Source of the DNA: Scleromatobacter humisilvae
Lineage (GTDB): Bacteria; Pseudomonadota; Gammaproteobacteria; Burkholderiales; Burkholderiaceae_C
Direction of reading: 5' to 3'
DNA length: 64,000 bases
Assembly: GCF_023231945.1 (NCBI RefSeq)
Contig: NZ_JAJLJH010000001.1
Span: forward strand, 682,001-746,000
Below are positions 5,343 to 48,844 of the stretch, in pieces. Within the stretch, counting starts at the first letter, position 1. Each line of letters begins with the position of its first letter. A program made the position numbers and the translations under genes. Under the pieces are notes generated by a model that had not been told where the DNA came from, did no database searches, and saw nothing but the letters and a program-made list of their open reading frames with translations.

Positions 5343-6311
5343 ATGGCAGGCGATTCGAAGAAGCTCCAGCCGATCATCATCAAGCGCGTCAAGAAGGGTG
5401 GCCATGCCGCCCACGGCGGCGCGTGGAAGATCGCCTACGCCGACTTCGTGACGGCCATGATGGCGTTCTTCCTGCTGATGTGGCTGCTGGGCTCGACCAC
5501 CGACGGCGACAAGAAGGGCATCGCCGACTACTTCCAGTCGCCGCTCAAGATCGCGCTGGCCGGCGGCTCGGGCTCGGGCGATTCGAACTCCGTGCTCAAG
5601 GGCGGCGGCGAGAGCCTCACGTCCACCGTCGGCCAGGTCAAGAAGGGCGACGTGGAGGCGCAGCGCAACACGATCAACCTGCACAAGCTCAAGGCCGAAC
5701 AGATGCGCGCCGAGGTCGCGCGGCTCGAGAACCTGAAGCAGGAGATCCAGCAGAAGATCGCCAGCAACGACAAGCTGAAGGACATCAGCTCGCAGATCCG
5801 CCTCGACATGACCCGCGACGGCCTGCGCATCCAGATCGTCGACGACCAGAACCGGCCGATGTTCGCCTCCGGCTCCGCGACGATCGCGCCGTACATGAAG
5901 GACCTGCTGCGCGCCATCGGCTCGGTGCTGACCGAGGTGCCCAACCGGCTCACGCTCGAGGGCCACACCGACGCCCAGCCGTTTCCCGGCGGCGACCGCG
6001 GCTACAGCAACTGGGAGCTGTCGTCCGACCGCGCCAACGCCTCGCGCCGCGAGCTGATCGCCGGCGGACTCGCCGACGACCGCGTCCTGCGCGTGCAGGG
6101 CCTGGCCTCGAGCCAGCCGTTCGACGAGAAGGATCCGCTGGCGCCCACCAACCGGCGGATCAGCATCATCGTGATGAACCGCGAGGCGGAGGACCGCATG
6201 TTCCGCACCGCGCCCGATCCAGCAGCCGCCGACGGCGCCGATTCTTCGGCCTCGAATGCGACAAATTCCACTGCGCCGCCCGCCGAAGCCTCAAGCGCAC
6301 CCGTCCATTGA
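5343..6311 (+). CDS. motB: Flagellar motor stator protein MotB
   Basis: A 322-residue MotB. One N-terminal membrane helix carries the proton-carrying aspartate D34 in YADFVTAMMAFFLLMWLLG. A linker and plug region with a predicted coiled coil (INLHKLKAEQMRAEVARLEN) is followed by an OmpA-like peptidoglycan-binding domain (LEGHTDAQPF, SNWELSSDRANASR, NRRISIIV). The last 30 residues are Ala/Ser-rich, low-complexity and dispensable-looking. It follows motA after 17 bases. Confidence 0.96.
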   Translation: MAGDSKKLQPIIIKRVKKGGHAAHGGAWKIAYADFVTAMMAFFLLMWLLGSTTDGDKKGIADYFQSPLKIALAGGSGSGDSNSVLKGGGESLTSTVGQVKKGDVEAQRNTINLHKLKAEQMRAEVARLENLKQEIQQKIASNDKLKDISSQIRLDMTRDGLRIQIVDDQNRPMFASGSATIAPYMKDLLRAIGSVLTEVPNRLTLEGHTDAQPFPGGDRGYSNWELSSDRANASRRELIAGGLADDRVLRVQGLASSQPFDEKDPLAPTNRRISIIVMNREAEDRMFRTAPDPAAADGADSSASNATNSTAPPAEASSAPVH

Positions 6312-6348
6312 CCGATAACCCTGCAGAACTTCGCCTCCCGAGGACACC

Positions 6349-6747
6349 ATGAGCAATCCCACCGACCTTAAATTCCTTGTCGTCGACGACTTCTCCACCA
6401 TGCGCCGCATCGTGCGCGGCCTGCTGAAGGAGATGGGCTGCAACAACTGCGAGGAAGCCGAAGACGGCCAGGTCGCGTTGAACATGCTCAAGGCCGCGAA
6501 ATTCGACTTCGTCGTGTCGGACATCAACATGCCCAACATGAACGGCTTCGACCTGCTCAAGGCGATCAAGGCCGACGACTCGATCAAGCACCTGCCGGTG
6601 CTGATGGTGACCGCCGAAGCGCGCAAGGAGGACATCGTCCTGGCCGCGCAGTCGGGCGCCGCCGGCTACATCGTCAAGCCTTTCACCAAGGCGACGCTGG
6701 AAGAGAAGGTCCAGAAGATCATGCAAAAGCTGGCGGCGACGGCCTGA
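6349..6747 (+). CDS. cheY: Chemotaxis response regulator CheY
   Basis: A 132-residue single-domain receiver. The acidic pair D13/D14, the phospho-acceptor D58 ([12 protein letters not shown]), T88 and K110 (GYIVKPF) are all present. When phosphorylated by CheA it binds FliM to alter rotation. It is followed after 16 bases by cheZ, its phosphatase, and is closer to canonical CheY than the second receiver at 14207, so this is the likely motor-binding CheY. Confidence 0.93.
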
Positions 6748-6763
6748 CCAGAGGGAGCAAATC

Positions 6764-7393
6764 ATGAAAATGGAAGACATCGCCGCGATGAAAGTGGATT
6801 CCCTCGCGGTTTCGCCCGAGGTGTTCCAGCAACTGGGCAACATCACCCGCGTGCTGCACGACACCATGCAGCAACTCGGCGTGATGCCCAAGCTGCAGAT
6901 CGCCACGGACGGCCTGCCCGATGCGCGCAGCCGCCTGAGCTACATCGCCTCGAAGACCGCCGACGCGGCCAACAAGGTGCTCAACACGGTGGATGCCGCC
7001 AAGCTCGAGCATCGCCAGATCGCCGACGCCACCCGCAAGATGGCCGAGCTGATCGTGGCCGACCCGGTCAAGGCCGTGGCCACCGGCGCCGTGATGAACT
7101 TCGTGCACGAGGTCGAGACCTCGACCAAGCGCATCGACGACCACCTGACCGACATCATGATGGCGCAGGACTTCCACGACCTGACCGGCCAGGTCGTCGC
7201 CAAGGTCGTGACGCTGGCCAACGACCTGGAAGACAGCCTCGTCAAGCTGCTGATCCAGGTGGTGCCGGAAGGCGTGCGCGAACAGGTCGACCCGTCCGTG
7301 CTGAACGGCCCGGTCGTCAACCCGGAAGGCCGCACCGACGTGGTGTCCGACCAGGGCGAAGTCGACGACCTGCTCGCCAGCCTCGGCTTCTGA
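6764..7393 (+). CDS. cheZ: CheY-P phosphatase CheZ
   Basis: A 209-residue CheZ that dephosphorylates CheY-P. The long helical hairpin carries the diagnostic active-site motif AQDFHDLTGQVVAKVV (residues 134-149). The C-terminal tail ends QGEVDDLLASLGF, the amphipathic CheY-binding peptide typical of the family. A GGGAGC ribosome site precedes the ATG. It is the last gene of the motAB-cheYZ operon, and a terminator follows within 25 bases. Confidence 0.95.
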   Translation: MKMEDIAAMKVDSLAVSPEVFQQLGNITRVLHDTMQQLGVMPKLQIATDGLPDARSRLSYIASKTADAANKVLNTVDAAKLEHRQIADATRKMAELIVADPVKAVATGAVMNFVHEVETSTKRIDDHLTDIMMAQDFHDLTGQVVAKVVTLANDLEDSLVKLLIQVVPEGVREQVDPSVLNGPVVNPEGRTDVVSDQGEVDDLLASLGF

Positions 7394-7414
7394 AGTTCTC
7401 CGTTTCCCTGCGAG

Positions 7415-7440
7415 ACGCCCGCTGCCCGCGGGCGTTTTTC
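7415..7440 (+). terminator. Rho-independent terminator after cheZ
   Basis: Stem ACGCCCGC / GCGGGCGT with loop TGCCC, followed by TTTTC. Confidence 0.9.
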
Positions 7441-7621
7441 ATGGCGGGTCGGACATGCCGCGGCATACCCCACCCGGTTACCCGGCGGTTCGCCGGTCGC
7501 CGCTCATCCGTTGCGCAGCAGGCCAAGGGTTCGCCACATCGAGCGATCGATCGCATTGCGCGATGATCGCCGCCGCGGGACGCGGCGCCCGGACTCGCCG
7601 CCACGACAACGGGAGACAAGA

Positions 7622-8758
7622 ATGCTGCTGAAACTTCGCCTGTGCGCATTGATTGCGCTGAGCCTCGCGGCCGGCTTCGCGACCGCCGACGACAGCCATC
7701 GTGGCCGCGACCCCGCGCCCCCGAAGGTGATCCTCGACACCGACTTCAACACCATCAGCGACGACGGCCAGGCGCTCGCGATGCTGGCGCAGCTCGACGC
7801 CGCCGGCAAGCTGGACCTGCTGGGCGTCACGGTCGCGACCGGCAACGCGTGGCTCGAGCAGGAGACCTCGGACGCGCTGAAGGCCGTCGAGCGGCTCGGC
7901 ATCGATCGCTCGGTGGGCGTCTACGTGGGCGCGAAATATCCGCTGCTGCACGACTACGACGCGTACCTCGACGAGGTCGCGCGGTTCGGCGCGCCGATCG
8001 ACTACGTCGGCGCCTTCGCGAGCCCGCCGCCCACTTCGCCGGGCGACATCGTCGCTCCGCCGGACGGCTTCGCAACCCACACGCGGCCGCAGCGGCAACA
8101 CGCGGTCGACTTCCTCATCGAGCAGATCCACCGCTACCCCCACCAGGTATCGATCCTGGAGATCGCGCCGCCCACCAACCTCGCGATGGCCATCCGCAAG
8201 GACCCGGGCATCGTGCCGCTGATCAAGCAGGTGGTGACGATGGCCGGACAGATCTACGTCGCCGGCAATGCCTACAACGACGTCGCCGAGTTCAACTGGT
8301 GGACCGATCCGGAGTCGGTGAAGATCGTGCTGCGCGCCGCGGTGCCCAAGGTGATCCTGCCGCTGGACCTGACCAACGACGTGCCCCTGACCAAGCCGGT
8401 GTACCTGCAGATCGCAAACCACCGGCCGGTCACGCCGATCACCAAGCTGTACACCGACGCGTACGCCCCCTTCTTCGGCTCGGCCCCGGCGCCGTATCCG
8501 CTCTACATCTGGGACACCACGGCGCTCGCCTACCTGGTCGACCCGACGTTCGCCACCTCGACGCGCGACCTGTGGGTGGACATGAGCACCACCTTCGACG
8601 CCAACTACGGCAAGTCCATCGTCTACGACAGCAATCCGACGCCCACGATCCCGCTGCTGCAGCCGTCGAAGGTCGTGTTCGCGTTCGACACCGCGCGCTT
8701 CTACGCGTTCTACGTCGACCTGCTGACCCGGCCCGTGCCCGTGCATGGCGGTCGCTGA
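7622..8758 (+). CDS. Exported inosine/uridine-preferring nucleoside hydrolase
   Basis: A 378-residue secreted enzyme of the nucleoside N-ribohydrolase family, which cleaves nucleosides to base and ribose. The signal peptide is MLLKLRLCALIALSLAAGFA. The calcium-binding motif appears as DTDFNTISDDGQAL, a variant with two residues inserted relative to classic DTDxxxDDA. Further family blocks are TVATGNAWLEQ and ILEIAPPTNLAMAI. The ATG at 7622 follows GGGAGACAAG and gives the signal peptide; in-frame sequence upstream is Arg-rich and not part of the gene. Its end overlaps the convergent DUF1801 gene by 49 bases. Likely periplasmic nucleoside salvage. Confidence 0.85.
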   Translation: MLLKLRLCALIALSLAAGFATADDSHRGRDPAPPKVILDTDFNTISDDGQALAMLAQLDAAGKLDLLGVTVATGNAWLEQETSDALKAVERLGIDRSVGVYVGAKYPLLHDYDAYLDEVARFGAPIDYVGAFASPPPTSPGDIVAPPDGFATHTRPQRQHAVDFLIEQIHRYPHQVSILEIAPPTNLAMAIRKDPGIVPLIKQVVTMAGQIYVAGNAYNDVAEFNWWTDPESVKIVLRAAVPKVILPLDLTNDVPLTKPVYLQIANHRPVTPITKLYTDAYAPFFGSAPAPYPLYIWDTTALAYLVDPTFATSTRDLWVDMSTTFDANYGKSIVYDSNPTPTIPLLQPSKVVFAFDTARFYAFYVDLLTRPVPVHGGR

Positions 8759-9150
8759 GCCGATTGGCGCGTCTGCATGTCGGCGTGGGCGTCCGCGATC
8801 AGGCGACGCAACGCCGCGTCGTCGACCTCGCGCCCCGGCACCAGCTTCACGTGCCGCATGAACCTGCCCGCGCCCTGCAGCAGCGCCGCGGGGTCGGTCA
8901 GCTCGTTGCCGTGGAAGAAGCCGAGATTGACGTGCCCGGTGAACGCATCCACGTAGGCGAACGCGGCATCGCCGACGCAGGCGGTCGGCTGGCCGTCGTG
9001 CAGCAGTTCGTGGATGTCGTCGCCGCTTGCTCGCAGCACGTCGAACCAGTGCCGCGCGAGCGCGCCCAGCTCGCCGGGATGCGTGTCGAACCACGCCGCG
9101 ACCGCGGGATCGCGGCGGGCCGCTGCAGGGAATCGGAACAGGCGCTGCAT
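8710..9150 (-). CDS. DUF1801 domain protein
   Basis: A 146-residue cytoplasmic protein resembling the DUF1801/YdhG-like family: a helical start (WFDTHPGELGALARHWFDVL), then GQPTACVGDAAFAYVDAFTGHVNLGFFHG and a GRFMRHVKL segment. The last 20 residues overlap the end of the nucleoside hydrolase and look unlike the family, so the true C-terminus may have been extended by stop loss. No close functional partner is visible. Biochemical role unknown. Confidence 0.65.
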   Translation of the reverse strand: MQRLFRFPAAARRDPAVAAWFDTHPGELGALARHWFDVLRASGDDIHELLHDGQPTACVGDAAFAYVDAFTGHVNLGFFHGNELTDPAALLQGAGRFMRHVKLVPGREVDDAALRRLIADAHADMQTRQSAQRPPCTGTGRVSRST

Positions 9151-9175
9151 CCCCCGATTCTGCAGCGGCGCGGCC

Positions 9176-10810
9176 TCAGCGCGCGCGGCGCAGCAGGTTC
9201 GGGTACGCGCTCGCGGTCAGCGCCAGCGTGCCCGACGCGGTCGCCACGACCGCGGGCGTGCGGTCGCTCGGCCCCGTCGTGGCGCGGCCGAGGGCCGAGT
9301 GGAAGTTCGTGCCCCAGCTGAGCACGCGGCCGTCGCGGCCGAGCGCGTAGCTGTCGGAATAGCTCGCCGCGATGGAGACGATGTCGGTGAAGCCGGCGAC
9401 GCTGCCGGCCTCTGACACCGTCACGTGCGGCACGCCGGTGGAGTTCAGCACGGGCGCGCCCGCGCCGTCGCCCAGCTGGCCGTCCGAGGAGACGCCCCAG
9501 GCGAGGACGCGTCCATCGAGATCGAGCGCCAGCGCGTGCCAGCCGCCGGCCGCCACCATCGCGATGCGGGTCAGGTTGCCGCCCGCGGCCTGCACCTGGA
9601 TCGCCACGGCGCTCGAGCCGCCGACGTTGCCGCGACCGAGCTGGCCGTCGGCGTTGCTGCCCCAGGCCCAGACGCTGCCGTCCGCGGCCAGCGCGAGGCT
9701 GAAGTTGTAGCCGGCCGAGACCTGCACGATGCCGTCCAGCGGCGAGCCGTCGGCGCGCACGACGTAGGCGGGCACCGTCGCCGGCGTGTTGGTCGCCGCG
9801 CCGTGCCCGAGCGAGCCGGGGTCGGTGTCGAAGCCCCACGACAGCACGTGGCCGTCGTCGGTCAGCGCGAGCGCGTAGTTCCAGCCGGCCGACACCGCCG
9901 CCACGTGGCCCAGCGGCGTCTTGCCGTCGGTGCCCACCGTCTGCACCGGCAGCAGCGAATCGCCGGCCGTGCCGTTGCCGGTGTAGTCGCCCCAGCTCAG
10001 CACCGAGCCGTCGTCGATCAGGGCCACGCCGTTCTCGTCGCCGAGCTCGATCTGCACGATGTGCTGCAGCGTCGCGTGCGACGTCAGGTCAACCACTGCC
10101 ACCGGCACGAGCGTCGCCCCGGCGTTCACCGTGCTGCCCAGTTCCCTGAAGCTGTCGTCGCCCCAGGCCCACGCGGTGCCGTCCTTGAGCAGCACGGCCC
10201 CGGCCTCCTGGCCCATCGAGGCCTGCATGACGCCGGCCCACGGCGTGCCGGCCGCGTTCTTCGCCGGCGTGGCGACGGCGAGGAACGGCAGCGCGGCGTT
10301 GTTCGCATCCTGGTCGAGGATGCCGCCGTCGTTGTCGCCCCAGGCCGCGACGGCGCCATCGCCCGCGACGCTCAACGCCGCGTAACGCGAGACGCCATGC
10401 GCACCCGTCCAATGCCGTTGCGGCACGCCGTGCACGACGAGGCTGGCGCTGGCGCCGCCGCCGCTGACGTCGATCGTCAGGGCACCGACACGCAGCGCGG
10501 TGATCTGGCTGCAGTCCGCGCTGACCGTGACCTGCGTCGCGTCGTGCGCGGCGCACATGGTGGCCGATGCGGCGACGGCGTGGCCGCTGCCGTCCGTCAG
10601 CGTGACCGACGCCGGCTGCGCCAGGCGCCACGCGAACTCTCCGCTGGCAGGCGAGGCGAGCGTCGCGACGGCAGCGGCCGGAGGCGGGGGTGGCACCGGC
10701 GCCGGAGGCGGGGGCGAAGAGCCGCCGCCGCACGCGGCCAGCGCCGCGGTCAAGGACATCATCACTGCCACGCGGGCAAGCTCGCGCCTTCGCGCGGGCG
10801 AAACAGTCAT
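9176..10810 (-). CDS. RCC1-repeat (beta-propeller) lipoprotein
   Basis: A 544-residue exported lipoprotein. The signal peptide ends AALAAC, followed by a Gly/Ser/Pro linker (GGGSSPPPPAPVPPPPP) and an Ig-like domain (about residues 50-140). At least seven RCC1 repeats follow, marked by VAAWGDNDGG, AWAWGDDSFRELG, VLSWGDYTGNG, VLSWGFDTDPG, VWAWGSNADGQLG, VLAWGVSSDGQLG and VLSWGTNFHSALG. These repeats build a propeller used for binding; there is no catalytic signature. The ATG at 10810 follows AGGGAGT. The gene is transcribed divergently from the 2OG oxygenase. Ligand unknown. Confidence 0.85.
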   Translation of the reverse strand: MTVSPARRRELARVAVMMSLTAALAACGGGSSPPPPAPVPPPPPAAAVATLASPASGEFAWRLAQPASVTLTDGSGHAVAASATMCAAHDATQVTVSADCSQITALRVGALTIDVSGGGASASLVVHGVPQRHWTGAHGVSRYAALSVAGDGAVAAWGDNDGGILDQDANNAALPFLAVATPAKNAAGTPWAGVMQASMGQEAGAVLLKDGTAWAWGDDSFRELGSTVNAGATLVPVAVVDLTSHATLQHIVQIELGDENGVALIDDGSVLSWGDYTGNGTAGDSLLPVQTVGTDGKTPLGHVAAVSAGWNYALALTDDGHVLSWGFDTDPGSLGHGAATNTPATVPAYVVRADGSPLDGIVQVSAGYNFSLALAADGSVWAWGSNADGQLGRGNVGGSSAVAIQVQAAGGNLTRIAMVAAGGWHALALDLDGRVLAWGVSSDGQLGDGAGAPVLNSTGVPHVTVSEAGSVAGFTDIVSIAASYSDSYALGRDGRVLSWGTNFHSALGRATTGPSDRTPAVVATASGTLALTASAYPNLLRRAR

Positions 10811-10914
10811 CGTCAAAATGGATACTCCCTGAGATTCGTCGTGAGTGCCGGGCGGCACCCCGAGCCTTTGAAGGCCGCGCGATTCTAGGAGCCGCCGGCC
10901 GTCGTCCTTGGGGA

Positions 10915-10941
10915 TTGACGGCGCATCGAGCCGCCTAGAAT
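10915..10941 (+). promoter_or_regulatory. Sigma-70-type promoter, probably leaderless, for 2OG oxygenase
   Basis: TTGACG (10915-10920), 15 bases, TAGAAT (10936-10941), then CCTGCA and the ATG at 10948. Initiation about seven bases after the -10 would fall on the A of the start codon, and no ribosome site is present. Confidence 0.5.
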
Positions 10942-10947
10942 CCTGCA

Positions 10948-11646
10948 ATGTCCACAGTCGATTTCATCGAGGTCTACGACGACGCGCTGTCCGCGCAGAG
11001 CTGCCAGGCGTTGATCGAGCGCTTCGAGCGCAGCGGCCAGGCGCGGCGTGGCGCGACGGGCGGCGGGGTCGACGTCGCGCTCAAGGACAGCTGGGACATC
11101 CAGCTCGACGCCTCGCCCGGCTGGGTCGACGCCCGCCAGCAATTGAACGACGCCGCCGCGCGCGGCCTGCGCCACTACCTGCGCCGCTTCGCGCACGTCG
11201 CGCTCGCGCCGCTGCAGCTCAAGATGAAGGACCCGGCCAGCGGCGAGCTGCGGCCGCTGGACGCGGGCGCCGTCGCCGCGCTGAGCGACGACCTGCTCGA
11301 TGGCCTCGTCGCCAAGGTGTTCCGCCCGGGCGGCATCAACATCCAGAAGTACATCGCCGGCCAGGGCGGCTATCCGTACTGGCACTCCGAGCAATACCCG
11401 AAGCGCGACAGCGGCGAGGCGCTGCACCGCGCCGTGCTGTGGACGATCTACCTCAACGACGGCTTCGACGCCGGCGAGACGGAGTTCCTCTACCAGCAGC
11501 GCAAGGTCGCGCCGCGCACCGGCAGCCTGCTGATCGCGCCGACCGGCTTCACGCACACGCACCGCGGCAACCGGCCCGAGGGCGGCGACAAGTACATCGC
11601 GACGAGCTGGATCCTGTACCAGCGGGCCGAGCAGCTCTACGCGTAG
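10948..11646 (+). CDS. 2-oxoglutarate/Fe(II)-dependent oxygenase, prolyl 4-hydroxylase-like
   Basis: A 232-residue cytoplasmic protein with the double-stranded beta-helix signature of prolyl-4-hydroxylase-type dioxygenases. The iron ligands appear as YWHSEQYP (H-x-E rather than the usual H-x-D) and FTHTHRGN. A downstream basic 2OG-binding segment, GDKYIATSW, follows. ALHRAVLWTIYLNDGFDAGETEF matches the family core. There is no signal peptide, and the substrate is unknown. The start codon sits directly behind a promoter-like TAGAAT with no ribosome site. Confidence 0.8.
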   Translation: MSTVDFIEVYDDALSAQSCQALIERFERSGQARRGATGGGVDVALKDSWDIQLDASPGWVDARQQLNDAAARGLRHYLRRFAHVALAPLQLKMKDPASGELRPLDAGAVAALSDDLLDGLVAKVFRPGGINIQKYIAGQGGYPYWHSEQYPKRDSGEALHRAVLWTIYLNDGFDAGETEFLYQQRKVAPRTGSLLIAPTGFTHTHRGNRPEGGDKYIATSWILYQRAEQLYA

Positions 11647-35832: not shown

Positions 35833-36597
35833 TCAGCCGTGGTGGCAGCGCCGGCCCAGGCGGCTGCCCTTCGCGGCCATCTTGGCCTCGACCTTGCGGC
35901 CGGCCATGCCGTCGCCGGTGTCGTAGTGCGGCGTCCACTTCCGGCCTTCGGGCTTGGCGTCGTCCCAGTACATCAGGTAGCCGCCCGCGGCGATCGAGAA
36001 CGGCGCCAGCGACGCGCCGGGCTGGACGCGGCCCAGGAAGTCGTTGCGCCCGCCCTCGACGACCTTGCGCGCGAACCATCCCGGCAGCAGGAAGTTCTGC
36101 ACGTTGACGCCCTCGATCTCGTAGCACTCGCCCGAGACCGCGTCGCACAGCTCGAACTGATGGAACACCAGGCGCCGGTGGTCGGTCGGGTCGGGGCCTT
36201 GCACCAGCAGGTTGTTCAGCGGATCGCCCACCAGCTCGATGGCCTCGTGCGACAGCGCCACCGTCCACGAGTCGGCGCCGGTGGTGCAGACATCGAGGAA
36301 CACGAAGCCGAACGGCACGTCGTCGTTGTTGCCGTCGTGGTAGCCCTCGGTGGCCGACATCGTCGGCTTGTCCTGGACGTAGATGACGGCGTCGCCGCGA
36401 CGGCCCGGCAGCACGGGCAGGTCGACCTTGCGTTCGCGCTGCGAGGGCACGCGGCCGGCGCTGTCGACGCGCAGGCGCGCGCCGAACTGCCAGTGCGGAA
36501 AGAAGTCTTCTTCCAGCTGGCGGTTGATCGCGCGCACTGCGTTCTGCAGCTCGCCATCGGACAGGTGAAGGCTTCGATTGACGACCGAGATCAACAT
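35833..36597 (-). CDS. Unknown conserved protein with HEAIE motif
   Basis: A 254-residue soluble protein with no signal peptide. The central WTVALSHEAIELVGDPLNNL carries an HExxE motif reminiscent of a zincin metal site, but the third ligand is not evident. Other notable parts are DKPTMSATEGYHDGNNDDVPFGFVFLD and a Cys pair (FELCDAVSGECYEI). The ATG at 36597 follows GGAGGAG. The C-terminus is basic (RLGRRCHHG). I do not recognise a function; a peptidase-like or metal-binding role is only suggested. Confidence 0.6.
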   Translation of the reverse strand: MLISVVNRSLHLSDGELQNAVRAINRQLEEDFFPHWQFGARLRVDSAGRVPSQRERKVDLPVLPGRRGDAVIYVQDKPTMSATEGYHDGNNDDVPFGFVFLDVCTTGADSWTVALSHEAIELVGDPLNNLLVQGPDPTDHRRLVFHQFELCDAVSGECYEIEGVNVQNFLLPGWFARKVVEGGRNDFLGRVQPGASLAPFSIAAGGYLMYWDDAKPEGRKWTPHYDTGDGMAGRKVEAKMAAKGSRLGRRCHHG

Positions 36598-36707
36598 GGG
36601 TGGCTCCTCCTGGCTTGGCCTTGTGGCGTGATTGTCGGGCTTCCCGCGGCGTCCCGCCACACGCGATACTGCTTCCCGACAGCCTCACCGCGGCCCGCCG
36701 CCTCGCC

Positions 36708-37622
36708 ATGGATTACGCCGAAGTCCTGCAACAGATCGCGCACGAGCTCGCGCCCGTCATCGGGCAGGGCAAGGTCGCCAGCTACATCCCCGAACTCGCC
36801 AGCGTCTCGCCGCATCATTTCGGCATGGCGGTCGTCACCATCGCCGGCGAGGTCTTCACGGTGGGCGACGCGCGCCAGCCGTTCTCGATCCAGTCGATCT
36901 CCAAGCTGTTCACGCTGGTGATGGCGCTGCAGCTCGAGGACGAGAAGGTGTGGACGCGCGTCGGCCGCGAGCCGTCGGGCACGCCGTTCAACTCGCTGGT
37001 GCAGCTCGAGGCAGAGAACGGCAAGCCGCGCAATCCGTTCATCAACCCGGGCGCGCTCGTGTGCACCGACATCCTGTGCACGCGCTACGCCGTGCCCGAG
37101 AACGCCGTCGTCGAATTCCTGCGCCCGCTGTGCGGCAACCGCGAAGTCCACTACAACCGCGCCGTCGCCGCATCGGAGCGCCGCACCTCGCACCGCAACG
37201 CCGCGATGGCACACCTGATGAAGGCGTTCGGCAACCTGAACAATCCGGTCGGCGAAGTGCTCGACGCCTACTGCCGCCACTGCGCGATCGAGATGAACTG
37301 CGTCGAGCTCGCACGCGCCGTCACCTTCCTCGCGCACGGCGGCACGCACCCCGCGGGCCAGGGCAACATCCTGAGCACCAGCATGGCCAAGCGCCTGAAC
37401 GCGCTGATGCTGACCTGCGGCACCTACGACGCCGCCGGCGACTTCGCCTTCCGCGTCGGCCTGCCGGCCAAGAGCGGCGTGGGCGGCGGCATCGTCGCGG
37501 TGATGCCCGGCGAGTGCGGCGTCTGCGTCTGGTCGCCGGCGCTGGAGCCCTCGGGCAACTCGCTCGCGGGGTCGCTGGCGCTGGAGCGGTTCACGGACAT
37601 CACGGGGCGGTCGATCTTCTAG
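36708..37622 (+). CDS. glsA: Glutaminase A
   Basis: A 304-residue glutaminase of the serine beta-lactamase fold, which hydrolyses glutamine to glutamate and ammonia. The catalytic S-x-x-K is in QSISKLFTL. Other family blocks are GREPSGTPFNSLVQLE, NPFINPGALV, LPAKSGVGGGIVA and MPGECGVCVWSP. The ATG at 36708 gives the family length. Its TAG stop overlaps the convergent gene's stop within the palindrome CTAG (37619-37622). Confidence 0.95.
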   Translation: MDYAEVLQQIAHELAPVIGQGKVASYIPELASVSPHHFGMAVVTIAGEVFTVGDARQPFSIQSISKLFTLVMALQLEDEKVWTRVGREPSGTPFNSLVQLEAENGKPRNPFINPGALVCTDILCTRYAVPENAVVEFLRPLCGNREVHYNRAVAASERRTSHRNAAMAHLMKAFGNLNNPVGEVLDAYCRHCAIEMNCVELARAVTFLAHGGTHPAGQGNILSTSMAKRLNALMLTCGTYDAAGDFAFRVGLPAKSGVGGGIVAVMPGECGVCVWSPALEPSGNSLAGSLALERFTDITGRSIF

Positions 37623-38887
37623 AAGCAGGTGACGATGGCATCGACGACGGTGTAGTCCTCGTCGACGATGGCCATCCAGCGCCACTTGTCGAACGTCGTG
37701 CACGGATGCGAGATGCCCAGGCAGACGCGGTCGCCGACCCGCAGGCCCTGCGTGTCCGACGTCAGGTGCAGGTAGGCATGCTGGTCGTTCAGCTTCTGCA
37801 CGGACCAGCCTTCAGGCACCGGCACGCAAGCCCGGCTGGCGCGCGCGCAGGTGGCCAGCGGGATGGGCATGCCCAGGTCGTACGAGATGTCGCGCTTGCC
37901 GACGGCCAGGATCGCCAGGCCCGGCTCCGGCATGGCCTGCACGAGCGCCCACACCTCCAGCGCGGCACGCAGGCCCTGCGCGTCGCTGCAGCCCAGGCGC
38001 TGGTTGACGGCGTGGACGAGCCGCTGGTAGTGGCCCTGGTCGTGCGTGACGTAGCAGCCCGAGCGCAGCAGGCCGGCGACCGGCCTGGCCAGCCCCACGC
38101 GCAATCGCGGCACGACCAGGTCGAACACGCCCGAGCCGCCGGCCGACACGATCACCTCGTCGGCACCGAACAGGCCCTCGGCGTCGCAGGCGCGCGCGAG
38201 TCGCTCGACGCGATCCATCAGGTCGTCGGCGGCCGGACGGTCGTCCTCGCTGCGGCCGGTGTTGCCCAGGCCTTCGTAGCACTCGATGCCCGCCAGCGTC
38301 ACGGCGGAGCTGTCGTGCGCGCGGCGCGCCAGCGCGAGCGCCGCGTCATGCGCGCGCACGCCCGTGCGCCCGCCCGCGACGCCCACCTCCAGCAGCACCT
38401 CGAACGGCCGGTCGACGGACACCGCCTCGATCAGCGCCAGCTGCGCCTCGGAGTCGAGCAGGAAGACGACGCGGACGTCCGGATGCGTGTCGTGCAGCGC
38501 GGCGATCGCGCCGAGGTCGGCGGCGTCCAGCACCTGGTTGGCGATGAGGATGTTGCGCGCGCCGGCCGCGAGCCCGGCCTGCATCTGCGTGACGGTGGCG
38601 AACGTCAGCCCCCACGCGCCGCCATCGAGCTGGCGCCGGAACAGCTGCGGCGACATCGTCGTCTTGCCGTGCGGCGCGAAGCGCACGCCGGCGTCGTCGG
38701 CGAAGCGCTGCATCCAGCCGATGTTGTGCGCCAGCGCGTCGCGCCGGATCACCGCCAGCGGCAGCGGCAGGTCGCCGGCGAGCACGTTCCAGCCCTGCGC
38801 GCCGACCCGCGACCGCGGCAACGGCGCGGCGCCGTGCGGATAGCCCTTGAACGTGGCGTCGAGCAGCGGGTCGAGGACGTCGGTCAT
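37619..38887 (-). CDS. D-amino-acid PLP enzyme (DSD1/D-threonine aldolase-like)
   Basis: A 422-residue fold-type III PLP enzyme of the alanine racemase-N superfamily. The PLP lysine is in RFAPHGKTTMSPQLF. The C-terminal metal site shows LGISHPCTTFDKWRW (His, Cys). The overall pattern (AVIRRDALAHNIGWMQRFAD; SAGGSGVFDLV) matches the D-serine deaminase/D-threonine aldolase group annotated as amino acid deaminase. It likely removes D-amino acids. The start is ATG 38887. It is convergent with glsA. Confidence 0.85.
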   Translation of the reverse strand: MTDVLDPLLDATFKGYPHGAAPLPRSRVGAQGWNVLAGDLPLPLAVIRRDALAHNIGWMQRFADDAGVRFAPHGKTTMSPQLFRRQLDGGAWGLTFATVTQMQAGLAAGARNILIANQVLDAADLGAIAALHDTHPDVRVVFLLDSEAQLALIEAVSVDRPFEVLLEVGVAGGRTGVRAHDAALALARRAHDSSAVTLAGIECYEGLGNTGRSEDDRPAADDLMDRVERLARACDAEGLFGADEVIVSAGGSGVFDLVVPRLRVGLARPVAGLLRSGCYVTHDQGHYQRLVHAVNQRLGCSDAQGLRAALEVWALVQAMPEPGLAILAVGKRDISYDLGMPIPLATCARASRACVPVPEGWSVQKLNDQHAYLHLTSDTQGLRVGDRVCLGISHPCTTFDKWRWMAIVDEDYTVVDAIVTCF

Positions 38888-39028
38888 GCGTCGATTATTC
38901 ACCTTCGTGGCGCGCGGGCCGCTGCAAATGCCAACTCGTTCACGGCGCGGCGTTCCACGATGGCCGCAAGGCCTCGTCGACGCAGTCTCCCTGCATCCGT
39001 CCGGCCGGGCCGTTCGTACATTCGATTC

Positions 39029-39688
39029 ATGACCCGAACTCGCCTGCCCTTGCTCGCCGCCTGCAGCCTGCTGCTCGCGTTCCGGGCGCATGCCGCCACC
39101 GTCACCGTGGCCGTGCACGGCGCCGATGGCCAGCCGGCGCCCAACGTCGTCGTGCAGCTGATGCCGGCGCATCCGGGCGCGGGCAAGCCGCCGCCGGCAC
39201 CGGTCGTCATCGCGCAGCGCGACATCCACTTCGTGCCCTACCTCACCGCGGTGCCGGTCGGGACGACCGTGCGCTTCTCGAACGAGGATCCATACGACCA
39301 CCACCTGCGCTCCGAGCCGGGCGGCCCGTTCGGCAACGTCGCGCCGGCCAAGGACTTCGAGATGCGCCTGGCCGCCATGACGGGCGGCAAGGCGGCGAGC
39401 GCCGAGGTGAAGTTCGACAGGCCAGGCGTCGTCGTCCTGGGCTGCCACCTGCACAGCTCGATGCGCGGCCACCTGTTCGTCAGCGAGACGCCGTGGGTCG
39501 CGGTGACCGACGCCAACGGCCTCGCCACGATCGCCGACGTGCCCGAAGGCGCGGCCGACCTGCGCACGTGGAGCCCCGAGCAGCTGGCCGACCAGCCGGC
39601 GAGCCAGAAGCAGATCGCCGGCGCCAGCGCGATCCTCGAGGCGACGCTCAACTTCACGCCGTCCAAGCCACGTCGCCGCCACAGCTGA
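39029..39688 (+). CDS. Exported cupredoxin-like copper protein
   Basis: A 219-residue periplasmic protein with signal peptide LPLLAACSLLLAFRAHA. It has a plastocyanin-like fold with copper ligands in YDHHLRSEPG (His) and VLGCHLHSSMRGHLFV (Cys, His, Met). This resembles methylamine-utilisation-linked cupredoxins. The C-terminal domain is a short beta module (VTDANGLATIADVPEGAADLRTWSP). A TACATT hexamer ends six bases before the ATG. It heads a same-strand set with the DUF3034 protein and an exported globin. Confidence 0.85.
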   Translation: MTRTRLPLLAACSLLLAFRAHAATVTVAVHGADGQPAPNVVVQLMPAHPGAGKPPPAPVVIAQRDIHFVPYLTAVPVGTTVRFSNEDPYDHHLRSEPGGPFGNVAPAKDFEMRLAAMTGGKAASAEVKFDRPGVVVLGCHLHSSMRGHLFVSETPWVAVTDANGLATIADVPEGAADLRTWSPEQLADQPASQKQIAGASAILEATLNFTPSKPRRRHS

Positions 39689-39705
39689 TGTCCACCGGAG
39701 CCCCC

Positions 39706-40644
39706 ATGCCGCCGAAAGCCCTTCCCGTCGACGTCTCGCACCGATCGCGCATCGCGATCACGTTGCCGCTGCTCGCCGCCGCCGCGCTCGCGCTGGCCCA
39801 TCCGCGCGCGCACGCCGGGACCGACAAGCTGCTGCTCACGGGTGGCGTCACGACGATCGACGGCGCGGCCGGCGGCGGCCTGACGCCCTGGGCCGTGATC
39901 GGCACCAACGCGACCGAGGGCGAGTTCGGCGTCGCGGCCACGGCGTCGGTCGTCTCCACGCGCAACTACACGATGCAGGTGCAGGGCCTGATGCTGGCGT
40001 TCGACGATCGCGTCGAGGTCTCGATCGCGCGCCAGGACTTCGCGACCGAGGCCACCGGCCGCGCGCTGGGCCTGCCCGGCCTGCATCTGAAGACGATCGT
40101 GTTCGGCGCCAAGGCGCGCCTGTTCGGCGACGCGGTGCTGGACAGCGATCGCTGGCTGCCGCAGGTCGCGGCCGGCGTCGAATGGAAGCAGGCCGACGCC
40201 GGCGGACTCGACCCCACGCTGCACGCACTCGGCGCGCGCACCAACGGCGTCGACGTCTACGTCAGCGCCACCAAGCTGTTCCTCGCGCAGGGCATCCTCG
40301 TCAATGGCACGCTGCGCGCGACCAAGGCCAACCAGAACGGGCTCCTGGGCTTCGGCGGCACGGGCAACGACAGGTACCGGCTCGAGCCCGAGTTCTCGGC
40401 CGCCTGGCTCGCGAACCGCAAGCTGGCCTTCGGCGCCGAGTACCGCCGCAAGCCCGACAACCTGAACCCGTCGCCGCTGGGCGCGGGCCTGAAGGAAGAC
40501 GACTGGTGGGACGTGTTCACCGCGTGGGCGCCCACGAAGAGCATCTCGCTGACCGTGGCCTGGGTGCAGCTGGGCCACATCGTGCCGGCCGTCGCGACGA
40601 AGAAGCAGGACGGCGGCTACGCGTCCGCGCAGATCGCGTTCTGA
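39706..40644 (+). CDS. DUF3034 family exported protein (probable outer-membrane)
   Basis: A 312-residue protein with signal peptide ITLPLLAAAALALAHPRAHA. The mature part is rich in amphipathic beta strands (LLLTGGVTTIDGAAGGGLTPWAVIG, VYVSATKLFLAQGILVNGTLRATKANQNGLLG in shorter pieces) and ends in a Phe (YASAQIAF), the mark of outer-membrane beta barrels. The ATG at 39706 follows GGAG; an ATG at 39688 overlapping the upstream stop (TGATG) is possible. Function unknown; its context links it to a copper protein and a globin. Confidence 0.8.
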   Translation: MPPKALPVDVSHRSRIAITLPLLAAAALALAHPRAHAGTDKLLLTGGVTTIDGAAGGGLTPWAVIGTNATEGEFGVAATASVVSTRNYTMQVQGLMLAFDDRVEVSIARQDFATEATGRALGLPGLHLKTIVFGAKARLFGDAVLDSDRWLPQVAAGVEWKQADAGGLDPTLHALGARTNGVDVYVSATKLFLAQGILVNGTLRATKANQNGLLGFGGTGNDRYRLEPEFSAAWLANRKLAFGAEYRRKPDNLNPSPLGAGLKEDDWWDVFTAWAPTKSISLTVAWVQLGHIVPAVATKKQDGGYASAQIAF

Positions 40645-40658
40645 ACCGAGGATCCGCC

Positions 40659-41102
40659 ATGAACAAGACCCTTCTCGCCATCGTCGCGATCGGCACCGCG
40701 CTCGCGCTGACCGCCGCCCACGCGCAATCGGCACCGGCCGCCGACGACACGCTGTTCCGCGCCCTCGGCGCCCGGCCCGGCATCGATGCCATCGTCGACG
40801 ACTTCGTGCCGCGCCTGGTGGCCGATCCGCGCACCAGCGAGTTCTTCAGGAAGACCAACCAGGCGCACCTGAAGCAGATGCTGGAGGAACAGTTCTGCGT
40901 GGTCTCGGGCGGACCGTGCGTCTACACGGGCCTGCCGATGAAGACGGCGCACCAGGACATGGACATCTCGAAGGGCGACTTCAACGCGCTCGTCGAGGTG
41001 CTGCAGGCCGCCATGGACGCGCAGCACGTGCCCTTCGCGACGCAGAACCAGCTGCTCGCGCGCCTGGCCCCGATGCACCGCGACATCGTCAACGTGCACT
41101 GA
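40659..41102 (+). CDS. Exported group 1 truncated haemoglobin
   Basis: A 147-residue truncated globin preceded by signal peptide TLLAIVAIGTALALTAAHA. That is unusual for a protein family that is normally cytosolic. The globin parts are TLFRALGARPGIDAIVDDF, HLKQMLEEQFCVVSGGPCVYTG and the proximal histidine in TAHQDMDIS. A Cys pair (C-VVSGGP-C) could form a disulphide in the periplasm. Heme-based binding of oxygen or nitric oxide is expected. It starts 14 bases after the DUF3034 stop and overlaps the end of the convergent SDR by 14 bases. Confidence 0.88.
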   Translation: MNKTLLAIVAIGTALALTAAHAQSAPAADDTLFRALGARPGIDAIVDDFVPRLVADPRTSEFFRKTNQAHLKQMLEEQFCVVSGGPCVYTGLPMKTAHQDMDISKGDFNALVEVLQAAMDAQHVPFATQNQLLARLAPMHRDIVNVH

Positions 41103-41979
41103 TCGCCAGCAGGTCGGCGATGCCGAGGCGGCGCGCGAACTCCGCGCGCACGCGCTCGGCGACCTCGGTCACCTCGCCCGCGCCGTCATTGAGGAAGTCA
41201 ACCACCGACCGGAACGGACGCTCGCCCGCGGGCAGCGACACGATGCGCGCGATCTCGTCGGCCACGGCCTGCGGATCGGCGTCCGGCGGCATCAGCGCGG
41301 ACAGCTTCGCGCCGACCTGGTCCATCACGCCGTCGTAGCGCGCGTAGGCCCCCGCGGTCGCCGCGTCGGCCGGCCTGCCGGCGTTCGGGAAGTGCGCGGT
41401 GCCCGACGTGAACGCGCCCGGCACGACGATGGAGGTCTCGACGCCGAAGCGGGTCAGCTCGTAGGACATCGTCACCGCGATCGAGTCCATCGCCGCCTTG
41501 GCCGCGGCATACGGCCCCATGAACGGCGGATAGCCGCCGCGCGTCGTGGTGCTGCCGACCCACAGCAGCAGCCCCGACTGCTGCGCCCGCAGCACCGGCA
41601 GCGCGGCCTTGTTGACGCGCTGCGCGCCGAACACGTTGGTGTCGAACACGCGGGTCATTTCTTCCGGCGTGAAGGCCTCGGTCGGCCCGATGACCAGGTG
41701 GCCGGCGTTGTGCACGACGACGTCGAGCCGGCCCTGCTCGGCGACGATGGTCCTGACGGCCGCGTCGGCGGAGTCCTGCGACAGCACGTCGAGTTCGACG
41801 GCGCGCAGGTCGTGGCCGTGCGCGAAGGCCCAGTCGCGCAGCTCGCGCACGTGCGAGGCGTTGCGGCCCGCGATGTCGCGCATGCTGGCGTAGACGATGT
41901 GGCCGGCGGCGGCCAGCGAGACGGCCGTGAGGCGGCCGATGCCGGTGGACGCACCGGTGACGAGGATGACGCTGTTCAT
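41089..41979 (-). CDS. Short-chain dehydrogenase/reductase
   Basis: A 296-residue classical SDR. The NAD(P)-binding VTGASTGIGR is at residues 7-16, the NAG-equivalent in VVHNAGHLV, and the catalytic Tyr-Lys in PYAAAKAA with an upstream Ser (WVGSTTT). The C-terminal part is longer than average. It lies 30 bases downstream of a second SDR on the same strand, and both are divergent from a LysR regulator that probably controls them. Substrate unknown. Confidence 0.9.
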   Translation of the reverse strand: MNSVILVTGASTGIGRLTAVSLAAAGHIVYASMRDIAGRNASHVRELRDWAFAHGHDLRAVELDVLSQDSADAAVRTIVAEQGRLDVVVHNAGHLVIGPTEAFTPEEMTRVFDTNVFGAQRVNKAALPVLRAQQSGLLLWVGSTTTRGGYPPFMGPYAAAKAAMDSIAVTMSYELTRFGVETSIVVPGAFTSGTAHFPNAGRPADAATAGAYARYDGVMDQVGAKLSALMPPDADPQAVADEIARIVSLPAGERPFRSVVDFLNDGAGEVTEVAERVRAEFARRLGIADLLAISAR

Positions 41980-42009
41980 GAGGGTTCCTTTCGTTGGCGA
42001 GGGGCGATG

Positions 42010-42780
42010 TCAGACGAGGCCGCCGTTGGCGCGCACGACCTGGCCGTTGATCCAGGCCGCATCGGGGCCCACGAGCAGCGCGACGCTGTTGGCGATGTCC
42101 TCGGGCTGGCCCAGGCGTTCGAGCGGCGCGGCCTTGGCGAGGCGCTCGACCTGCTCCGGCGTCTTGCCGTCCAGGAACAACGCGGTGGCGGTCGGGCCGG
42201 GCGCGACGGCGTTGACGGTGATGCCCTTGCCGCGCAGCTCCTTGGCGAGGATGTGGGTCATCGTCTCGATCGCGCTCTTGGTCGCCGCGTAGACCGCGTA
42301 GCCGGGCATCGCGAGGCCGACGACGCTGGTCGAGAAGTTGACGATGCGGCCGCCGCGCCGCAGCCGCGCCGCGGCCTCGCGCATCGTGTTGAAGCTGCCC
42401 TTGACGTTGACGGCCAGCAGCGCGTCGAAGGTGCTGTCGTCGGTGTCGGCCAGCGTGGGCAGGCCGGGCGGCATGATGCCGGCGTTGTTGACGAGCACGT
42501 CGACGCCGCCGTACTGCGCGACGGCCTCGTCGAACAGGCGGCGCACGTCGGCCGGGTTCGAGACGTCGGCCTTGACCGCGACGGCCTGCCCGCCGGCCTC
42601 GCAGACGGCGTCGACGACCGCGGCGGCCTCGTCGGCGCTGCCCGCGTAGTTGACGACGACCGCGTAGCCGTCGCGGCCCAGGCGCCGGGCGATGGCCGCG
42701 CCGATGCCGCGCGCGGCGCCGGTGACGATGGCGACCTGCCTGGCGCCGATGATCGCGGTGTTGATGGTGCTGGTGTTCAT
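42010..42780 (-). CDS. SDR-family oxidoreductase, 3-ketoacyl reductase-like
   Basis: A 256-residue classical SDR with VTGAARGIGAAIARRLG, DVLVNNAGIMPPG, Ser in NFSTSVVG and the catalytic YAATKSA. The sequence resembles FabG-type and glucose 1-dehydrogenase-type reductases (VNAVAPGPTATALF). It is the first gene of a two-SDR unit divergent from a LysR-type regulator, separated from it by a 135-base region. Confidence 0.92.
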   Translation of the reverse strand: MNTSTINTAIIGARQVAIVTGAARGIGAAIARRLGRDGYAVVVNYAGSADEAAAVVDAVCEAGGQAVAVKADVSNPADVRRLFDEAVAQYGGVDVLVNNAGIMPPGLPTLADTDDSTFDALLAVNVKGSFNTMREAAARLRRGGRIVNFSTSVVGLAMPGYAVYAATKSAIETMTHILAKELRGKGITVNAVAPGPTATALFLDGKTPEQVERLAKAAPLERLGQPEDIANSVALLVGPDAAWINGQVVRANGGLV

Positions 42781-42915
42781 GGTGCGCTCCGTGGGGTTGG
42801 GTGGTTCTGGCCCCTGAGGTGTTCAGCGAGTCAGTGGAATGGATTGTTCTGTTTTGCCGTTTCGGGATAAATGAGCTAGATTTGCCATCACTGTTCAACC
42901 CACATCAACAATCGA

Positions 42916-43809
42916 ATGGATCGCTTCGAGGCCATGCAGGTGTTCGTGAAGGTGGCCGAGCTGGCCAGCTTCACGCGCGCGGCCGAGCAGCTGGAGCTGC
43001 CGCGCGCCACCGTCACGCACACGATCCAGCAGCTCGAGAAGCGCCTGGGCGTGCGCCTGCTCCAGCGCACCACGCGCCACGTCAGCGCGACGCCCGACGG
43101 CGAGGCCTTCCTGCAACGCTGCGTGCGGCTGCTGGCCGACCTGCAGGAGGCCGAGGACGCGTTCAGCCGCAGCGCGGTCAGGCCGTCGGGCAAGCTGCGC
43201 GTCGACCTGCAGGGCACGCTGGCGACGCACTTCCTGCTGCCGCACATCGGCGGGTTCTTCGAGCGCTATCCCGACATCGAGATCGACATCGGCCTCGGCG
43301 ACCGCATCGTCGACCTGGTGCGCGAGGGCATCGACTGCGTGCTGCGCGCCGGCGAGCCGCGCGACTCCAGCATGGTGGGCCGGCGCGTGGCGATGCTGGC
43401 GCAGGTGACGTGCGCGAGCGCGGCCTACCTGAAGGCCAATGGCACGCCGAAGACGCCGGCCGATCTCGCGCGCCATCGCGCCGTGAACTACGCCGGCGCC
43501 TCGGGCAAGGCCTTGCCGTTCGACTTCCTTGTCGACGGGCAGGCGCGCAGCGTCAACCTGCGCGGCGGCGTCACGGTGCGCCACGCCGACGCCTACGTCC
43601 AGTGCTGCCAGGCCGGCCTGGGGCTGATCCAGCTGCCGCGCTACCACGTCGAGGCCGCGCTGGCGGACGGCACGCTGCGCGAGGTGCTGGCCGCGTACCG
43701 GCCCGCGCCGCTGCCGGTGTCGGTGCTCTATCCGCACTCGCGCCAGCTGTCGCCGCGGGTGCGCGTGTTCGTCGACTGGGTCAGCGAGCGGATGCAGCGC
43801 GGGCGCTGA
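42916..43809 (+). CDS. LysR-family transcriptional regulator
   Basis: A 297-residue LysR protein. The N-terminal winged helix-turn-helix (FVKVAELASFTRAAEQLELPRATVTHTIQQLEKRLG in shorter pieces) is followed by a type 2 periplasmic-binding-like effector domain (KLRVDLQGTLATHFLLPHI onward). It is divergent from the two SDR genes, the usual arrangement for LysR control of the neighbour. The effector is unknown. Confidence 0.93.
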   Translation: MDRFEAMQVFVKVAELASFTRAAEQLELPRATVTHTIQQLEKRLGVRLLQRTTRHVSATPDGEAFLQRCVRLLADLQEAEDAFSRSAVRPSGKLRVDLQGTLATHFLLPHIGGFFERYPDIEIDIGLGDRIVDLVREGIDCVLRAGEPRDSSMVGRRVAMLAQVTCASAAYLKANGTPKTPADLARHRAVNYAGASGKALPFDFLVDGQARSVNLRGGVTVRHADAYVQCCQAGLGLIQLPRYHVEAALADGTLREVLAAYRPAPLPVSVLYPHSRQLSPRVRVFVDWVSERMQRGR

Positions 43810-47712: not shown

Positions 47713-48079
47713 GTGCGGGAGTCTAGAACCGTTGCGCGAGCCGCGCCGGAATGCGGCCTTTGCAACCGCGCGGGCAGTCTTGACCAATCCGGTTAAGTGC
47801 GAACCCGCAGCCCTGCATGAGCAACGAGACGACGCCTAGCGCAACTCGCCCGGCGTGTGGCGAAAATCTTCGCGCAATCCTCGTGCCCTCCCCAGTTTGT
47901 AGTTGGGGGAACTTGCTATCCCGGGCTCTGCCACATCGCAACAGAATGAAAGAGCACTCAGGTTCCCGAAAGGGGAATCCGAGCAAGGACAGTGCGGTCG
48001 GGATCCTTCCGCGGACCCGATACGACCGCCCTCACACAGGGCGCGCATTGTCCGGACCAAGCCAGGAAAGAGGGATTCC
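47713..48079 (+). other. Long non-coding leader/intergenic region before PEP-CTERM gene
   Basis: A 367-base region between divergent genes with no supported protein gene. It contains a hairpin with arms CCCCA/TGGGG (47890-47908) and the structured segment at 47954-48042. The remainder holds nothing I can assign. Confidence 0.6.
47954..48042 (+). promoter_or_regulatory. Candidate structured RNA leader (three hairpins) before PEP-CTERM gene
   Basis: Module 1: GCACT (47954-47958) pairs with AGTGC (47991-47995), enclosing a GGTTCCC-GAAA-GGGGAATCC hairpin with a GNRA-type loop and an unpaired GAGCAAGGAC. Module 2: GGTCG (47996-48000) pairs with CGACC (48023-48027), enclosing a GGATCC / GGACCC-type stem. 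Module 3: GCCCT (48028-48032) pairs with AGGGC (48038-48042). It ends 38 bases before the ATG and its ribosome site AAAGAGGGA. I could not match it to a known riboswitch class. Confidence 0.4.
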
Positions 48080-48844
48080 ATGAAGAGTCTTTTCGCGAAG
48101 ACCGCACTTGCTGCGGCCACTGTCCTCAGTGTGGGCGCCGCTCAGGCCTCCGTGATCGATTTCGAGAATGTCGACATGTCGGGCCTCTCGTTCGCGCCCT
48201 TGGTCAGCAACAACGAAATCCTGACGCAGGGGCCGTTTTTCATGCAGGGCTACGACGGCAACGGCTCCAGCGATCCCGGCCTGGTCGGCTCGCTGATCGG
48301 CCCGAAGTCCGGTGGCAGCTGCGACGGGGCGGGCATCGCCTGCCCGACCGGCGACAGTACCGACTATTACGCGACGCTCAACACGGGCGTCCTGTACATG
48401 CAGGGCCCGCACGACATGACGCTGACGCAGTTCGATGCCGGCTTCATCGCGCCCGCGGGCGGCGTTCCCAACGGCGCCTTCGGCCTGCTGGTGGTCGAAG
48501 GCGACCGGGCCGACAAGTCGTACGCGATCGGCGCCTACAAGCTGAGCGGCCCGGACGCCTCCGGCAGCACGTCATTCTCGACCTTCCAGGCCGCCGGCGC
48601 GATGAACGACCTCTTCGGCGGCACCACCGGCACGATCGACCAGGGCGGCTTCGCCGACTACCAGTTCCTCGAGTTCTACTGCTCGTCGAGCTCGCTGGGG
48701 TCGTGCAGCCTCGATCGCAGCAACCTGGGCCAGTTCGCGCTGGACAACGTCACGTTCGCGGTCCCGGAACCTTCGTCGTGGGCGCTGATGGCCTTCGGCC
48801 TGGCCGTCGTCGGCAGCGCCGCCCGTCGTCGTCGCTCGGTCTGA
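48080..48844 (+). CDS. PEP-CTERM sorting-signal exported protein
   Basis: A 254-residue secreted protein. An N-terminal signal peptide (SLFAKTALAAATVLSVGAAQA) is followed by a beta-rich domain beginning VIDFENVDMSGL, with Cys pairs (SGGSCDGAGIACPTGD; YCSSSSLGSCSLD). The C-terminal sorting signal is VPEPSSWALMAFGLAVVGSAARRRR: VPEP, a hydrophobic helix and an Arg tail. It is recognised by exosortase EpsH/XrtA systems that link proteins to exopolysaccharide. The ATG at 48080 follows AAAGAGGGA. A secreted subtilase follows 37 bases downstream. Confidence 0.92.
   Translation: MKSLFAKTALAAATVLSVGAAQASVIDFENVDMSGLSFAPLVSNNEILTQGPFFMQGYDGNGSSDPGLVGSLIGPKSGGSCDGAGIACPTGDSTDYYATLNTGVLYMQGPHDMTLTQFDAGFIAPAGGVPNGAFGLLVVEGDRADKSYAIGAYKLSGPDASGSTSFSTFQAAGAMNDLFGGTTGTIDQGGFADYQFLEFYCSSSSLGSCSLDRSNLGQFALDNVTFAVPEPSSWALMAFGLAVVGSAARRRRSV

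Follow-up and report, generated by a model that had tools for sequence, protein, structure and literature searches.

What does a truncated haemoglobin do outside the cytoplasm, encoded beside a copper protein and a predicted outer-membrane barrel? The question is raised by three genes in a 64,000-nucleotide stretch of Scleromatobacter humisilvae DNA (hereafter the window; contig NZ_JAJLJH010000001.1, positions 682,001 to 746,000), which encode, all on the plus strand, a cupredoxin (39029-39688), a DUF3034 protein (39706-40644) and a truncated haemoglobin (40659-41102). Truncated globins are generally regarded as cytosolic, and all three window proteins start with a plain signal peptide, as judged by eye from the translations. 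The gene positions and short gaps given in a preliminary description of this DNA were confirmed: the open reading frames (ORFs) are separated by 17 bases (cupredoxin/DUF3034) and 14 bases (DUF3034/globin), and an in-frame ATG at 39688, overlapping the cupredoxin stop, is an alternative DUF3034 start. The best reading of the gene set, to which we assign a probability of roughly 0.4, is an envelope haem-copper sensory module that lowers cyclic di-GMP (c-di-GMP); just as tentatively, the three genes would be one half of this conserved module.

Conserved linkage in other genomes, on which the preliminary description had made its proposal depend, was found in three samples: 60 related genomes, 16 of which carry DUF3034 (own genome included); the best 80 of at least 588 confirmed named loci, which are biased to Burkholderiales because all are close to the query; and 398 proteobacterial genomes (the phylum sample), 39 of them with DUF3034. 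The DUF3034 and globin genes were adjacent in 16/16 of the DUF3034-bearing relatives, the globin lay directly downstream of DUF3034 in 75 of the 80 named loci, and the two were adjacent at 38/38 places of the phylum sample, L178 being a broken copy and the DUF3034 match of L176 partial. Named loci without an adjacent globin were L068 (at a contig end), L075, L097, L098 and L108, and all five genomes carry a globin elsewhere. The broken copy (G137:C3) is a second DUF3034-globin pair in a genome whose intact pair lies at L174. The cupredoxin is tied less tightly than this pair, as it was present in 9 of the 16 relatives, in the stretch at 37/80 named loci and at 31/37 phylum-sample loci (L178 excluded); its place in the gene order varies.

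Presence and absence across the 398 genomes followed the same pattern. The globin profile exceeded 117 bits at 42 places in 41 genomes, with the next score at 90.6, and the globin was present in 39/39 DUF3034 genomes vs 2/359 others; for the cupredoxin (above 170 bits) the counts were 38/39 vs 12/359. Fisher p-values for co-occurrence are tiny, in a calculation that ignores kinship and with a globin profile built from DUF3034 neighbours; since only the best few candidates per genome were scored, misses are possible. Distances among the three proteins were correlated (Spearman 0.40-0.51, permuted maxima 0.14-0.19), in agreement with joint inheritance and confounded by species descent. Among the six ORFs scanned, the neighbours of the stand-alone globins L179 and L180, from two genomes, gave no clue.

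Many of these clusters hold a fourth gene. With L178 excluded and L176, whose DUF3034 is partial, included, 29/37 clusters of the phylum sample contain a gene with dCache_3 and GGDEF-EAL parts; among the closer loci 3/16 (L017, L018, L029) contain one, with all four domains, dCache_3-HAMP-GGDEF-EAL, by Pfam. Most often the genes run in the order cupredoxin, phosphodiesterase, DUF3034, globin, and in some genomes the two halves are divergent. By kinship label, most of the phylum-sample loci with the phosphodiesterase belong to different orders within the class of the window or to different classes of the phylum, presumably Gamma- and Alphaproteobacteria. DUF3034 was also found in 13 plasmid records; the four examined, three of Caballeronia and one of Novosphingobium, all have the same four genes, and the ORFs of the set overlap or nearly touch in two of the three Caballeronia records. 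By a hand tally, the enzyme gene lies within the cluster or beside a cupredoxin elsewhere in 36/39 genomes with DUF3034. The cupredoxin is directly followed by such an enzyme at 12 of 18 distant cupredoxin loci as well, and among the 12 cupredoxin genomes that lack DUF3034 six have the pair and two more have a dCache_3 part only (one at a contig end). In the clusters L141 and L142 the cupredoxin gene has a dCache_3 phosphodiesterase gene on either side. GGDEF/EAL genes near L019, L021, L022, L024, L031 and fifteen named loci are without dCache_3 and were not counted as members. One of these loci, L031, encodes a Protoglobin-GAF-EAL protein (9106-11382) beside the DUF3034-globin pair, a different type of haem c-di-GMP sensor.

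Eight positions, which we take to be the EAL catalytic set, are invariant in 34/34 dCache_3 proteins, and GG[DE]EF is intact in only 9/34 of the dCache_3-GGDEF-EAL proteins. Because of these two counts the output is probably c-di-GMP breakdown, and the partner enzyme is predicted to be a c-di-GMP phosphodiesterase with a periplasmic sensor domain. With this protein as fourth member, the likely role of the set moves from redox or nitric oxide (NO) metabolism towards signalling. The part of the preliminary description that saw a single exported copper-haem-barrel unit is supported; the NO or oxygen (O2) chemistry that it suggested stays conjectural.

A second cupredoxin, of the CNIHDGM type, is encoded in the window's genome on contig C8 (C8:131000-145000; L197, locus span 4003-8992). 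There it is followed by a dCache_3-HAMP-GGDEF-EAL gene (4003-6429), the GGDEF motif of which reads SGDEF, and preceded by a GGDEF gene. The cupredoxin-phosphodiesterase pair also occurs apart from DUF3034-globin, which suggests that the set is made of these two blocks, joined in some lineages and separate in others; the three genes of the window would be the DUF3034-globin block with an extra cupredoxin.

The globin of the window (147 residues) matches Bac_globin of Pfam with 58.5 bits (cut-off 21), and the best match of its model (predicted local distance difference test score, pLDDT, 90.2) in the PDB is HbN of Mycobacterium tuberculosis (1idr), at 0.9 Å over 114 columns. Its predicted 2/2 fold and proximal HisF8 place it among the group 1 (N) truncated haemoglobins; the proximal ligand is His98 (40950-40952), which aligns with His81 of HbN. 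The signal peptide and cysteine pair pointed out in the preliminary description are borne out: the N-terminus is Sec-type by eye, with a signal peptide of 22 residues ending AHA/QS (40659-40724), and an exported N-terminus recurs in the family, which also keeps Cys80 (40896-40898) and Cys87 (40917-40919), at the end of the E helix and in the EF loop. These two cysteines probably form a disulphide. On the signal-peptide evidence alone, the cytoplasmic location that the preliminary description had named as fatal to its idea does not apply. The globin's Protoglobin match reaches only 13.3 bits (cut-off 25) and it is a separate chain, so it is not a globin-coupled sensor.

We aligned 132 globin rows of the module (16 from relatives including the window, 75 from the named loci, 2 from genomes that lack DUF3034, and 39 of the phylum sample, among them two pieces of the broken copy) with 14 other globins out of the same searches as controls, and counted residues over the rows covering each position. 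HisF8 and both cysteines are found in 131/131 module rows. The positions B10, E7 and E11 are mainly aliphatic, B10 being Val, Met, Leu or Ile in 123/129 rows and Tyr in none, and E11 being Leu, Phe, Ile or Val in 131/131 (Leu in 118 of them); Gln or His occupies E14 in 122 rows, and Leu occupies G8 in 109. Neither the O2-stabilising TyrB10/GlnE11 pair of the HbN type nor the distal PheB9-TyrB10 pair, the commonest state in the family and not required, occurs in the module globins. Among the controls E14 is Phe in 13/14, and three (L190-L192) have TyrB10 with GlnE11. The Cys pair also occurs in controls L181, L183 and L184, which have Arg at CD1 and come from genomes without a DUF3034 match. 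Because controls share single features, the signature of the module globins is a combination and no single residue. The three controls just named form a separate truncated-globin group with a signal-like N-terminus, the same Cys pair, ArgCD1 and ValE11.

The module globins thus share with HbN and other group 1 globins the 2/2 fold, HisF8 and PheCD1, and differ in being exported or lipoproteins, in their invariant Cys pair (E16 and EF loop) and in the pocket, with mainly aliphatic residues replacing Tyr at B10, mainly Leu in place of Gln at E11 and mostly Gln or His in place of Phe at E14. In the available part of PMC4720485, TyrB10 is given for 80% of truncated globins, O2 release is fast without distal stabilisation, and in clade N a low affinity for O2 is associated with Leu at positions E7, E11 and G8; the available part of PMC7082302 calls TyrB10 the most conserved ligand-stabilising residue. 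Low O2 affinity of the module globins is expected, because their pocket residues match the low-affinity clade N state described there (PMC4720485).

A rule asking for a hydrophobic stretch plus a lipobox or a signal peptidase I site called 128 of the 132 module rows exported. The misses were L040 (a masked stretch), L178 (a fragment of the broken copy) and L173 and L175 (wrong anchor), the last two having a hydrophobic N-terminus on inspection. The rule is lax, since 5/14 control globins were also called exported. A lipobox was called in 21/39 phylum-sample rows vs 1/16 and 4/75 of the closer rows. In the globin tree the module globins fall on the same side of a branch whose support, 81/81, is under the starred level. 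Elsewhere, at least nine genomes of a family labelled f57 (G099:C3, G107:C42, G190:C51, G265:C98, G292:C165, G123:C28, G095:C12, G245:C6, G263:C4) have one or two truncated-globin genes within a few kb of sub-cut-off NirK-like (multicopper) matches.

The cupredoxin has 219 residues, with a C-terminal part resembling CarboxypepD_reg and a signal peptide of 22 residues ending AHA/ATV (39029-39094, by eye). Its putative ligands, encoded within 39299-39463, are His91 (39299-39301), Cys139 (39443-39445), His142 (39452-39454) and Met145 (39461-39463), and all four are invariant in 40/40 aligned relatives. By this His, Cys, His, Met set it is assigned to the type 1 copper proteins, with copper binding predicted. 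Its Cupredoxin_1 score in Pfam, 17.6 bits, is under the cut-off of 27, and 12/40 relatives match that family at E 0.01; a profile of the 40 relatives matches cupredoxin domains in the PDB, namely those of copper nitrite reductase (NirK) and pseudoazurin. RefSeq plasmid records label relatives of the cupredoxin 'methylamine utilization protein'.

The DUF3034 protein (312 residues; PF11231, 310.4 bits, cut-off 25) has a signal peptide of about 37 residues ending AHA/G (39706-39816, by eye; helix predicted at 13-31), a conserved Gly-rich N-terminal segment (about residues 42-63) and a C-terminal Phe. Its AlphaFold2 model (pLDDT 84.1) has 12 strands, and the top Foldseek matches in the PDB are barrels: FapF (5o65), which is the best, and Omp33, OmpG and KdgM. 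The protein is therewith predicted to be an antiparallel outer-membrane beta-barrel. FapF is its best match as an outer-membrane barrel, from which it differs in being only 9-12% identical, with a template modelling (TM) score of 0.42-0.48, and many other barrels score alike. NCBIfam gave no informative name for any of the three window proteins, and the open-access literature, in the parts available, mentions DUF3034 only in passing.

A sensory module fits these observations best because the copper protein pairs with a sensor enzyme and the haem protein with an outer-membrane barrel. The exported globin, with its weakly O2-stabilising aliphatic pocket and putative disulphide, and the periplasmic type 1 copper protein would together sense a diatomic ligand or a redox state, the ligand most likely being NO or low O2. 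The signal would be passed to the periplasmic dCache_3 domain of the membrane-bound EAL phosphodiesterase, which would then lower c-di-GMP, while the DUF3034 barrel in the outer membrane may serve as pore or anchor for the globin. Here we infer haem and copper occupancy, contact between the parts and the direction of signalling. H-NOX proteins without a distal hydrogen-bond donor favour NO over O2, and the pocket of the module globins likewise argues for NO or redox state over tight O2 binding. A full relay, in which the globin, as a lipoprotein or a periplasmic protein, is held at the barrel, captures NO or some other diatomic gas in an O2-rejecting pocket and signals through the type 1 copper protein to the dCache_3 phosphodiesterase, is a more specific proposal that we regard as rather doubtful.

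Several observations weigh against a sensory module. In the window's own genome the phosphodiesterase lies on contig C8, apart from the three genes, none was found beside them, and the dCache_3 domain was found in 0/80 named close-locus stretches. In G078, G137 and G200 the enzyme is not beside the cluster or a cupredoxin, the whole genomes not having been searched, and an exact match to DDFGTG, the EAL loop motif, is present in only 19/34 proteins. TyrB10 is absent from 9/14 control globins too, and therefore its loss alone marks nothing; the co-occurrence counts ignore shared ancestry. No enrichment of FNR boxes was found in 133 upstream regions, stretches placed by profile hits rather than by mapped starts, and NarL-like and NorR-like patterns were also at shuffle level upstream of the 133 clusters. 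NirK (TIGR02376, over cut-off) occurs in 3/39 DUF3034 genomes vs 52/359 others; these counts show no link to NirK denitrification, NirS and Nor not having been searched. Finally, low-affinity clade N globins have been suggested to store or transport O2 (PMC4720485, available part).

This last suggestion is the basis of a further explanation, in which a low-affinity globin buffers periplasmic O2 or delivers it to an oxidase and the link to the phosphodiesterase is regulatory. A pocket without a hydrogen-bond donor should, however, release O2 very fast or autoxidise, and the cupredoxin and the barrel are left unexplained; we consider this account highly improbable. Another candidate is a periplasmic detoxifying or redox enzyme, in which the globin would turn over NO, nitrite or peroxide with electrons from the cupredoxin, the barrel admitting substrate and the phosphodiesterase being merely co-regulated. 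Type 1 copper proteins are known electron carriers. The haem and copper proteins are co-encoded and HbN is the nearest PDB relative of the globin, but the globin lacks HbN's distal Tyr/Gln pair, NirK does not co-occur, and the cupredoxin-phosphodiesterase pair occurs without the module globin. We consider such an enzyme unlikely.

The barrel invites two other explanations. As FapF, the best Foldseek match, is an amyloid secretion barrel, DUF3034 could be a FapF-like channel through which a secretion or matrix system exports a product; globin and cupredoxin would be its accessories in the envelope, and c-di-GMP would control it as it does other matrix systems. The conserved Gly-rich segment and the haemagglutinin-type genes near the four genes on two Caballeronia plasmids (L233 11399-14786, L236 13547-14786) would suit it. 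However, because many barrels score as low as FapF does, secretion is kept merely as a rival, and among the ten recurring ORFs annotated (other recurring clusters were not) none is a fibre or polymer gene; we think it very unlikely. Equally slight is the chance that the barrel takes up haem or copper, with the globin as periplasmic haem carrier and the cupredoxin as copper store: all three proteins are predicted in the envelope, with haem or copper ligands among them, but a partial look at annotated ORFs and plasmid RefSeq features revealed no TonB-dependent receptor or haem oxygenase.

The open-access literature, to which the search was confined (subscription papers and preprints lay outside its scope), gave no description of the gene set. 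The proposed sensory module resembles NspS-MbaA, and H-NOX with c-di-GMP enzymes encoded next to it, in that separate or periplasmic sensing controls a c-di-GMP enzyme. We know of no cupredoxin or DUF3034 barrel in these systems or in HmsC-HmsD or PdeC, and the sensor proteins of all four are unlike those of the module. HmsC-HmsD and PdeC, which share this kind of control, are named in the available part of PMC8846402, a review of c-di-GMP sensing in whose text the words 'copper' and 'truncated' are absent. Globin-coupled sensors (protoglobin-GGDEF/EAL), covered in that part, also couple a haem globin to c-di-GMP turnover; there the protoglobin is on the enzyme's own chain, whereas the module globin is separate, truncated and exported. 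Periplasmic action of a truncated globin has been proposed for truncated-haemoglobin domains of cable bacteria (PMC11976967, available part), which are fused to pentahaem cytochromes in a proposed terminal oxidase; the module globin is a free protein, encoded next to a barrel and a cupredoxin and in many genomes also to a c-di-GMP enzyme.

Within the window the three genes form an isolated unit, because the gene upstream of the cupredoxin (of the alanine racemase/D-serine dehydratase type) is divergent and the two genes downstream of the globin, encoding short-chain dehydrogenases, are convergent. Neither a promoter-like nor a terminator-like pattern was seen on the plus strand between 38800 and 41400, and an Rfam scan of 36000-43000 gave 0 matches at the gathering threshold. 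Further along the window, 47903-48844 encodes an exported-looking protein with the C-terminal end VPEPSSWALMAFGLAVVGSAARRRRSV, presumably a sorting signal of the PEP-CTERM type.

An association that spans several proteobacterial orders as well as plasmids thus links exported globins, recognisable by their pocket signature and Cys pair, to DUF3034 and, by way of a copper protein, to a predicted c-di-GMP phosphodiesterase. DUF3034, the exported globins and the cupredoxins labelled as methylamine utilization proteins thereby acquire a common role that can be tested. If the sensory module is real, c-di-GMP signalling would gain a haem-copper input in the form of a gas or redox sensor acting outside the cytoplasm, and cells may use the gene set to detect changes in gas or redox state around them and alter their lifestyle accordingly.

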